This document shows, in pieces, positions 4,720 through 19,288 of a stretch of DNA of 33,957 nucleotides. Origin of the DNA: Bernardetiaceae bacterium (GTDB taxonomy: Bacteria > Bacteroidota > Bacteroidia > Cytophagales > Bernardetiaceae); assembly GCA_020832465.1 (NCBI GenBank), contig JAFIER010000003.1, positions 1-33,957 of the forward strand, in the 5' to 3' direction. The notes beneath the pieces are model-generated. The model was not told the DNA's origin. It was given only the letters and a program-made list of their open reading frames with translations, and did not search any database. Position 1 is the first letter of the stretch. Each line of letters opens with the position of its first letter. The position numbers were made by a program, and so were the translations under genes.

Positions 4720-4824
4720 GTTTTATAAGCACCAGTACTTTTTTATTATTTCAGCAGGTGTATGTTTATGAGCTTATTAAATAGCTAAAAAAGGCTGTTA
4801 CTTTTGTACCCTTACTTATAATGG

Positions 4825-4951
4825 ATCATACTACTATACATATTTCCATAGCGTGGGGTTTGTAAACCCCCACGCTATGTAAAAATAGGCTTAGAAATGC
4901 CATTTCTTAAAGAAATGTTATTTCTGGCTAGCGAATGTATAGTAGTATGAT
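4825..4951. mobile_element. MITE-like element, copy A, with perfect 17-bp terminal inverted repeats and AATGG target duplication
   Basis: ATCATACTACTATACAT at 4825-4841 is the exact reverse complement of ATGTATAGTAGTATGAT at 4935-4951. The element is flanked directly by AATGG at 4820-4824 and again at 4952-4956, which looks like a 5-bp target duplication. Inside are two hairpins: CATAGCGTGGGG/CCCCACGCTATG at 4847-4879, and a weaker AGAAATGCCATTTCT/AGAAATGTTATTTCT pair at about 4893-4925. No coding capacity is present, so any movement would depend on a transposase from elsewhere. Diverged copies with the same order of parts occur at 18501-18626 and, partly, at 13836-13954 and 26355-26453. Confidence 0.75.
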
Positions 4952-4957
4952 AATGGA

Positions 4958-5848
4958 TTACTTTTTGATTTTTTTAATCCACTTTTTACCTATCAATACT
5001 TTCACCAATAATATTAGATTTCCAAAGGAAAGCCCGCCCTTGCTCAGGGCTTTCCAAGCAAAATAAAGGGATTTCTTTCGGTTATAATCTAAGTAGGCAT
5101 GTATGGCACAAAAACGATAAGAGTGGGTTTGAAGTATTTGTTTTTCTTTATTGGAGAGTTCAAGCTCGGTTATAAGTTTTTGTGTTGCTCGTACCCTTGC
5201 TTCTATGAGCTTTTGATTTTGCATCATAGAACGTCCGTCGTGGTCTATGACGGTTATTGTAATTGCATCGATGAGATAAAGAGGATTTTGATACGTATTC
5301 AGCACGCAAAAAATCCAATCTTCACAAAGATTAAAATCTGCTGGAAAAGGCACGACCTTTAGGCTACGACGTATAGCAAAAAGTGCATTTAAAAAGCTAC
5401 CTTTGAGAAAAGATTTGTAGTCGTGGCTTCCTGCTGCTAAAGCACAGACAGGAGCCCGAACGAGTTTGCCGTTTGTATTGATTTGAAATTTTGTAGCAAA
5501 AATATGATAGTCTTTATGTTCTAAAATAGCCTCCTTTAAAGTTTGCAAATGATTTTCGTGCATATAATCATCAGAATCAAAAAATACTACAAACTCACCC
5601 TTGGCGTGTGCAAAGCCATAGTTTCGGGCAATAGAACGCTCTTCATTTTTTTTGGGGAGATAGCGAACATTGTCTTTATAATGGGTATGAATCAGTTCGG
5701 CAGTTTGGTCGGTGCTTCCGTCATCTACAAGGATAAGTTCAAAATTTTGATAGCTTTGATTTAGCACTGAATCAAGTGTATTGCTTAGCCGGTTAGCCCG
5801 GTTATAAGTAGGAATAACTACGGAAAAAAAAGGTATTTTTTCAGACAT
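4958..5848 (-). CDS. Family 2 glycosyltransferase
   Basis: The 296-residue GT-A fold enzyme transfers a sugar from a nucleotide-sugar donor, probably in assembly of a surface polysaccharide or glycoconjugate at the cytoplasmic face of the membrane. The N-terminus FFSVVIPTYNRANRLSNTLD, the ELILVDDGSTD strand and the metal/donor-binding FFDSDD motif (about residues 90-95) are the GT2 signature. The C-terminal half is variable, with basic residues at the end (KKWIKKIKK), and no transmembrane span is evident. It is not in a polysaccharide cluster: the neighbours are a kinase gene and a lipoprotein gene, so acceptor and sugar are unknown. The MITE-like element ends 6 bases beyond its stop codon. 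Confidence 0.85.
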   Translation of the reverse strand: MSEKIPFFSVVIPTYNRANRLSNTLDSVLNQSYQNFELILVDDGSTDQTAELIHTHYKDNVRYLPKKNEERSIARNYGFAHAKGEFVVFFDSDDYMHENHLQTLKEAILEHKDYHIFATKFQINTNGKLVRAPVCALAAGSHDYKSFLKGSFLNALFAIRRSLKVVPFPADFNLCEDWIFCVLNTYQNPLYLIDAITITVIDHDGRSMMQNQKLIEARVRATQKLITELELSNKEKQILQTHSYRFCAIHAYLDYNRKKSLYFAWKALSKGGLSFGNLILLVKVLIGKKWIKKIKK

Positions 5849-18290: not shown

Positions 18291-18696
18291 ATTTAATTTT
18301 TTTAGTTGATAAGAAATCCTAAAAAATAAGTCCCCAAAAAAAAATATACAAATGCCGAACTTATTAGAACGCCCAAAATACATATTCTTAACCAAAAAAA
18401 CTACTTTTTAGCCGTGAGAAATTGCATTTATCTGAAAATATTGCTTCTAAATACGAAAATTGCTTAATTTTTGTGTATCTTTACGTTCATATAAATTTAA
18501 CCATACGGCTATATGCACTTTTCCATATCGTGGCGTTTGAAAATCACACGCTATGAAAAAATGGACTTAGCAATAAGAGGTCTTAAAGACATGTTATTGC
18601 TGACTCACGAATGTATAGCAATATGGAATATAACACTAAAAACTACTGTTTACCCAAAGAAACAATGAACAAGTGTTTAAACAATAAAACCCTAAT
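18291..18696. other. Intergenic stretch between divergent permease and BLUF genes
   Basis: It contains the MITE-like copy at 18501-18626 and otherwise AT-rich sequence. A TATCTTTA box on the plus strand at 18476-18483 resembles a -7 element but has no matching upstream TTTG at 19-21 bases. If used, it would transcribe through the repeat element into the BLUF gene, placing the element in the BLUF 5' leader. Confidence 0.4.
18501..18626. repeat. MITE-like repeat family, copy B
   Basis: The copy starts CCATACGGCTATATGCA and ends ATGTATAGCAATATGG, which are imperfect inverted repeats. Inside, CCATATCGTGGCGTTTGA pairs with the CACACGCTATG side as the first hairpin, and CAATAA/TTATTG with AGGTCTT/AAGACA forms the second. 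The order, spacing and total length (126 bp) match the intact element at 4825-4951, while sequence changes in one arm are often matched in the other. No target duplication is evident. Confidence 0.6.
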
Positions 18697-19135: not shown

Positions 19136-19288
19136 GTAACTACTCAGGTACTCAAAAGTGTGTATCATAGGTATTTAAAAGCTATTTAATTTTAGAAATA
19201 ACATTTCTGGCAGAAATGTTATTTTTAAAATTCGGTACTCAATATCTATTATAGCCGTGTTTGGGGTCCTCAAGACCTGAGTAGTTAC
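19136..19288. repeat. 153-bp inverted-repeat element with 14-bp perfect termini and internal hairpin
   Basis: GTAACTACTCAGGT (19136-19149) is the exact reverse complement of ACCTGAGTAGTTAC (19275-19288). Centred within is the common hairpin AGAAATAACATTTCT (19194-19208) with AGAAATGTTATTTTT (19212-19226). It occupies almost the whole gap between the convergent BLUF and beta-helix genes, so it may act as a two-way terminator; the long outer repeat is MITE-like. No flanking direct repeat was recognised. Confidence 0.55.

Follow-up and report, generated by a model that had tools for sequence, protein, structure and literature searches.

A 123 bp MITE family in a Bernardetiaceae bacterium with ends resembling those of an IS4-family insertion sequence, the probable source of its transposase

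The DNA analysed here, termed the window, is a stretch of 33,957 nucleotides from a Bernardetiaceae bacterium (contig JAFIER010000003.1, assembly GCA_020832465.1). At positions 4827–4949 it holds, on the + strand, a MITE of 123 bp that carries no gene; the borders were established by comparing the flanks of other copies. The element has perfect 15 bp inverted ends, with CATACTACTATACAT as the left terminal repeat (4827–4841, + strand) and the right terminal repeat at 4935–4949 on the − strand, where the + strand reads ATGTATAGTAGTATG. A 9 bp target duplication, ATAATGGAT, is found at 4818–4826 and again at 4950–4958. The right duplication shares its last base with the stop codon (4958–4960) of a glycosyltransferase gene, and this codon is 8 bases from the right border of the MITE. 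The two genes at this site are convergent. The first-pass annotation of the locus had proposed an element of 127 bp with 17 bp ends and a 5 bp duplication, AATGG, ending 6 bases past the glycosyltransferase stop. The inverted ends and the duplication are real, but their extents and the distance to the stop codon have been revised: the two outer bases of the supposed ends, together with AATGG, belong to the 9 bp duplication, which overlaps the codon. An intermediate estimate of 16 bp ends and a 7 bp duplication was dropped after more copies, and MITEs of other genomes, were compared.

Two inner hairpins are present on the + strand, one at 4847–4879 (CATAGCGTGGGG...CCCCCACGCTATG) and a second at 4893–4925 (AGAAATGCCATTTCT...AGAAATGTTATTTCT), the latter a copy of a palindrome found genome-wide. 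The element as a single strand folds at −58.7 kcal/mol (z = −9.6), and none of 200 shuffled sequences was equally stable. There is no open reading frame; both the hairpins and the absence of a gene stand as originally described. A second, older copy of the MITE is found in the window at 18502–18625 (+ strand); it is 80% identical to the family consensus, and its 9-base flanks agree at seven of nine positions by eye. A different dispersed repeat, about 93 bp long (TAAGCACCAGTGCTTTTTTATTATTTCAGCAGGTGTCTG...CCCTTACTTAT), directly adjoins the first MITE on its left, at 4725–4822. This repeat has 18 matches in 1.21 Mb of the genome, three of which, the one in the window included, have a MITE at the same end. 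What looked like an unoccupied version of the window site, in L179, is merely the end of this neighbouring repeat and was not counted.

The genome of the bacterium (4.6 Mb searched, in 289 contigs) has 144 forward and 149 reverse matches to the 15 bp end with at most one mismatch, a total of 293, versus 1 + 2 (three) for a control pattern. Forty long matches to the element were scored and show 83–100% identity. A profile search of 1.21 Mb found 87 full-length and 146 partial copies, some of the partial matches being other repeats that have a hairpin in common with the MITE; the sampled stretches were picked partly for holding matches, and copy density is likely overestimated. The bacterium has well over a hundred copies of the MITE. 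Full-length copies are almost exclusively outside open reading frames (85 of 87, with two inside), though 79% of the sampled sequence is open reading frame. Their median identity to the consensus is 89%, and length variants of 69–149 bp have the same ends and duplications and differ mainly by deletions or additions within the hairpins. The window copy is 93% identical to the consensus and about 92% to the nearest sampled copy; the earlier suggestion of recent movement therefore holds in a relative sense only. In the relatives searched from the same family and order, there are hairpin-sized matches but no full-length copy. Of the two results named in the first-pass annotation as grounds for refutation, a lack of further copies and the presence of the element in all related species at one place, neither was obtained. 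In one copy (L167, 6107–6318) a repeat with ends GGTGTAC...GTACACC has seemingly been inserted into hairpin 2; repeats therefore nest in this genome.

The 9 bp duplications are not confined to the window copy. Flanks agree at no fewer than 8 of 9 bases in 38 of 64 candidate end pairs, a level reached by 0.05% of random sites; the 64 pairs had been selected for good ends or good flanks, and 38/64 is a biased rate. In the 38 clear insertions every duplication has a different sequence, and the target consensus is ATNNNNNAT. Two copies have exact empty sites. The copy at L199 19168–19291 splits a dispersed repeat of which at least six copies are unoccupied; the 9 bp are single when the site is empty and double around the MITE. 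The copy at L200 18182–18303 interrupts a sequence whose match at L105 1529–1599 is unoccupied; there the 9 bp are again single, and they are double around the MITE. The element accordingly has these properties of a MITE: it is short (the class spans about 30–300 bp), without a transposase gene, flanked by target duplications and present in many dispersed copies.

The first-pass annotation had pointed to an insertion sequence with the same kind of ends as something to be looked for, and one is present in the bacterium's own genome, with an intact transposase gene. It is 1,224 bp in length (contig C277, 26832–28055; L133 1458–2681) and has perfect 15 bp ends, CATACTACTAGACAA/TTGTCTAGTAGTATG, and one intact open reading frame that encodes a DDE/YREK transposase of 384 amino acids. 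The C277 ends and those of the window MITE are the same at 13 of 15 positions, differing at positions 11 and 15, and many MITE right ends agree with the insertion sequence at 14 of 15. The interior of the insertion sequence bears no likeness to that of the MITE, and therefore the MITE is not a simple deletion of it. The contig and the insertion sequence end at precisely the same base, as repeats break short-read assemblies in this way; the nine flanking bases on the left are ATAGCTAAT. No other close transposase is found in the assembly.

The C277 transposase matches the Pfam family DDE_Tnp_1 (E = 5.5e-22; 78.9 bits, above the cut-off of 23). Among NCBIfam models it matches IS4_2 best (E = 1.1e-43), at 149.7 bits, just below a cut-off of 152 that is the threshold of one model and not a defining trait of the IS4 family. 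Both hallmarks of that family (De Palmenaer et al., 2008; PMC2266710) are found. The catalytic residues D105, D169 and E278 have spacers of 63 and 108 residues (D-63-D-108-E), within the IS4 spacing D(60-110)D(100-150)E, and Y271, R274, E278 and K285 form the Y(2)R(3)E(6)K motif. The single open reading frame and a duplication of about one helix turn (9 bp, as read from the MITEs and from relatives) also agree with the IS4 family. Members of the IS4Sa subgroup are 1150–1750 bp in length, with CA------T ends and duplications of 8–10 bp (De Palmenaer et al., 2008). The C277 insertion sequence is alike in all these traits, its duplication length being that read from the MITEs and relatives; the MITE differs in having no transposase. 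A sequence search of the PDB with the transposase gave no match, and a single-sequence structure model had a pLDDT of 37.6, too low to be of use. The element represents a new MITE family within the IS4 family, IS4Sa-like as judged by the ends, size and duplication length of the C277 insertion sequence.

A hybrid of the two elements is found in another contig of the genome (G000:C194; L163 757–917). It consists of the MITE, with its left end, followed by the last 31 bp of the insertion sequence, and reads GGTTTGGAT, MITE, ATAGCTAAATTAGCTTTTGTCTAGTAGTATG, GGTTTGGAT; the 31 bases that follow the MITE match the last 31 of the insertion sequence exactly, and one perfect 9 bp duplication encloses the whole. 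As both kinds of end are found inside one duplication, they have probably been used together. The simplest history would be the insertion of a MITE into the end of an insertion sequence copy, after which the left end of the MITE and the right end of the insertion sequence moved jointly.

Related transposases, which lie beside comparable ends, lend independent support to the link between MITE and insertion sequence. In Persicobacter sp. JZB09 a transposase of 43% identity belongs to an insertion sequence with ends CATACAGCTAGACAT, and five of five copies have exact 9 bp duplications. Relatives in Spirosoma (ends TAAATCCGC) and Bernardetia (ends GGAAATAGT) likewise have similar ends and 9 bp duplications. 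Metagenome-assembled genomes (MAGs) of Saprospiraceae contain MITEs of about 125–134 bp with ends exactly as in the window MITE and with 9 bp duplications, and the interior is unrelated. One of these MAGs (G292) has an intact transposase, 44% identical, between TACACTACTGGACAT ends; in two of the three with exact MITE ends, no close transposase was found. In a further genome (G039) the MITE ends equal the end beside a decayed transposase, CATACTACTATACAA. In other genomes, most end pairs that lie far apart are weak or join two separate MITEs, and only a 1,211 bp pair in G004 encloses a transposase; this decayed insertion sequence pointed to the intact one in C277. Further MITE interiors are found in other genera of the order, and the viral contigs searched have no MITE with both exact ends. 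From these comparisons, it is the ends that define the mobile unit, and the interior is free to vary.

Very likely, then, the element is a non-autonomous MITE that is moved, or was recently moved, by the IS4-family transposase of the C277 insertion sequence or of a close relative. The original proposal of a transposase acting in trans thus gains support from the many copies with distinct duplications, from the C277 insertion sequence and from the hybrid. The transposase would bind the 15 bp ends and excise the MITE, which would be joined to target DNA cut with a 9 bp stagger, with a preference for ATNNNNNAT and mostly in intergenic regions; repair of the gaps would duplicate the 9 bp. The C277 transposase probably moved the window copy itself, the chemistry would be cut-and-paste, and the system may be active at the present day.

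A variant of this explanation differs in the identity of the enzyme only: a different IS4-type transposase, now lost, with ends CATACTACTATACAT may have moved the MITE, and the C277 insertion sequence would then be a cousin. The differences at end positions 11 and 15 and the unrelated interiors are consistent with such a loss, as are the exact MITE ends in Saprospiraceae MAGs, two of three of which yielded no close transposase. In the hybrid, however, one end from a MITE and one of the C277 type are used as a single unit, many right ends agree with the insertion sequence at all but one position, and the assembly has only one close transposase. A lost enzyme is possible but somewhat doubtful. 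Far less credible is spread by recombination, or within a larger duplicated segment, in place of transposition. The 93 bp repeat does adjoin the window copy and two other MITE copies, but apart from this the copies have different flanks, the 9 bp duplications are distinct, and the exact empty sites within two other repeats contradict such a process; its probability is taken to be close to nil.

The conservation of the hairpins raises the question of whether the element is a structured RNA, or a REP-like palindrome maintained for a function at the ends of genes (mRNA end or stability), and not primarily a transposon. Compensatory changes keep the pairing in both hairpins: 47 cells are changed on both sides versus 15.5 in shuffles, a count that kinship among copies inflates, and the score is 0.099 versus 0.019–0.035 when the hairpins are slid. 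The strong intergenic bias, and the roughly 250 occurrences of hairpin 2 outside the MITE in 1.21 Mb, are also in keeping with such a role. Against it, the 9 bp duplications are clear and all different, and there are empty sites. In addition, the stem formed by the ends frequently lacks pairing (30 of the 51 copies have a mismatch at one pair, and 22 of 51 at another), the end sequence being otherwise well conserved. The element has no match in Rfam, and a terminator scan of it revealed no terminator-like site. Palindrome symmetry can be accounted for by selection, but also by repair through template switching. An RNA or REP-like identity is thus considered quite improbable, and the MITE reading is retained, with ends that appear to be conserved as sequence and hairpins as palindromes.

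Mobile elements of a comparable kind are the MIC231/IS231 cassettes of Bacillus cereus (IS4 family), in which non-autonomous DNA between IS4-family ends is mobilized by a transposase supplied in trans. The MIC231 cassettes bear genes and are larger, whereas the MITE described here is a 123 bp hairpin element in many copies. The MIC231/IS231 mobile insertion cassettes are cited in PMC6542083. The Correia, ERIC, Chunjie and QMITE2 elements are also small, multi-copy and mostly intergenic, with inverted ends, target duplications, hairpins and size variants, but differ in ends and partner; the review of prokaryotic MITEs in which they are treated does not mention the IS4 family (PMC10969869). BrickBuilt of Porphyromonas gingivalis is likewise an intergenic MITE in Bacteroidota, but it has IS5-like ends and a minisatellite core (PMC4596501). 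The open-access papers searched gave no match for the terminus sequences or for IS4Sa together with MITE, although absence there is no proof that the family is undescribed. An abundant MITE family in Bacteroidota thus has a likely intact partner insertion sequence, a natural hybrid and exact empty sites, and cross-mobilization is therefore directly testable.

The hairpins are not confined to the MITE. The hairpin 2 motif has 374 matches in 1.21 Mb, 255 of them outside the MITE, versus one for a control with reversed arms. Perhaps the MITE is a composite, in which ends recognized by a transposase captured genome-wide palindromes that were spread or kept by another route. This tentative reading is based on the abundance of hairpin 2 outside the MITE, including at least one repeat family whose ends differ, on the presence of hairpin 1 in repeats with other ends in related genera and on the same ends being found around other DNA in Saprospiraceae; if correct, ends and hairpins would be interchangeable modules. 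Y1 transposases (the REP-associated type) were considered as a source of hairpin 2; they are present in the genome, but no hairpin 2 was found at their loci, and they therefore fail to account for the palindrome.

Within the window, copies of hairpin 2 are found at 19194, 25370, 30962 and 33093, often just past stop codons, e.g. 12 bases past that of rpoB. Hairpin 1 (TTTCCATAGCG..GGGTTTGCAAACCC..CGCTATGGAAA) is found in repeats with other ends, such as AACGTTATCACGGTT...AACCGTGATAACGTT (L031–L046, mostly genus g2). A further repeat family, with ends GGTAGT...ACTACC, surrounds a variant of hairpin 2 (GGTAGTGTATAACAAGTAATGCTTAGAACTAACAGTTCT...GACTACC); examples are found in L092 near 7002, L093 near 4775 and L101 near 18835.
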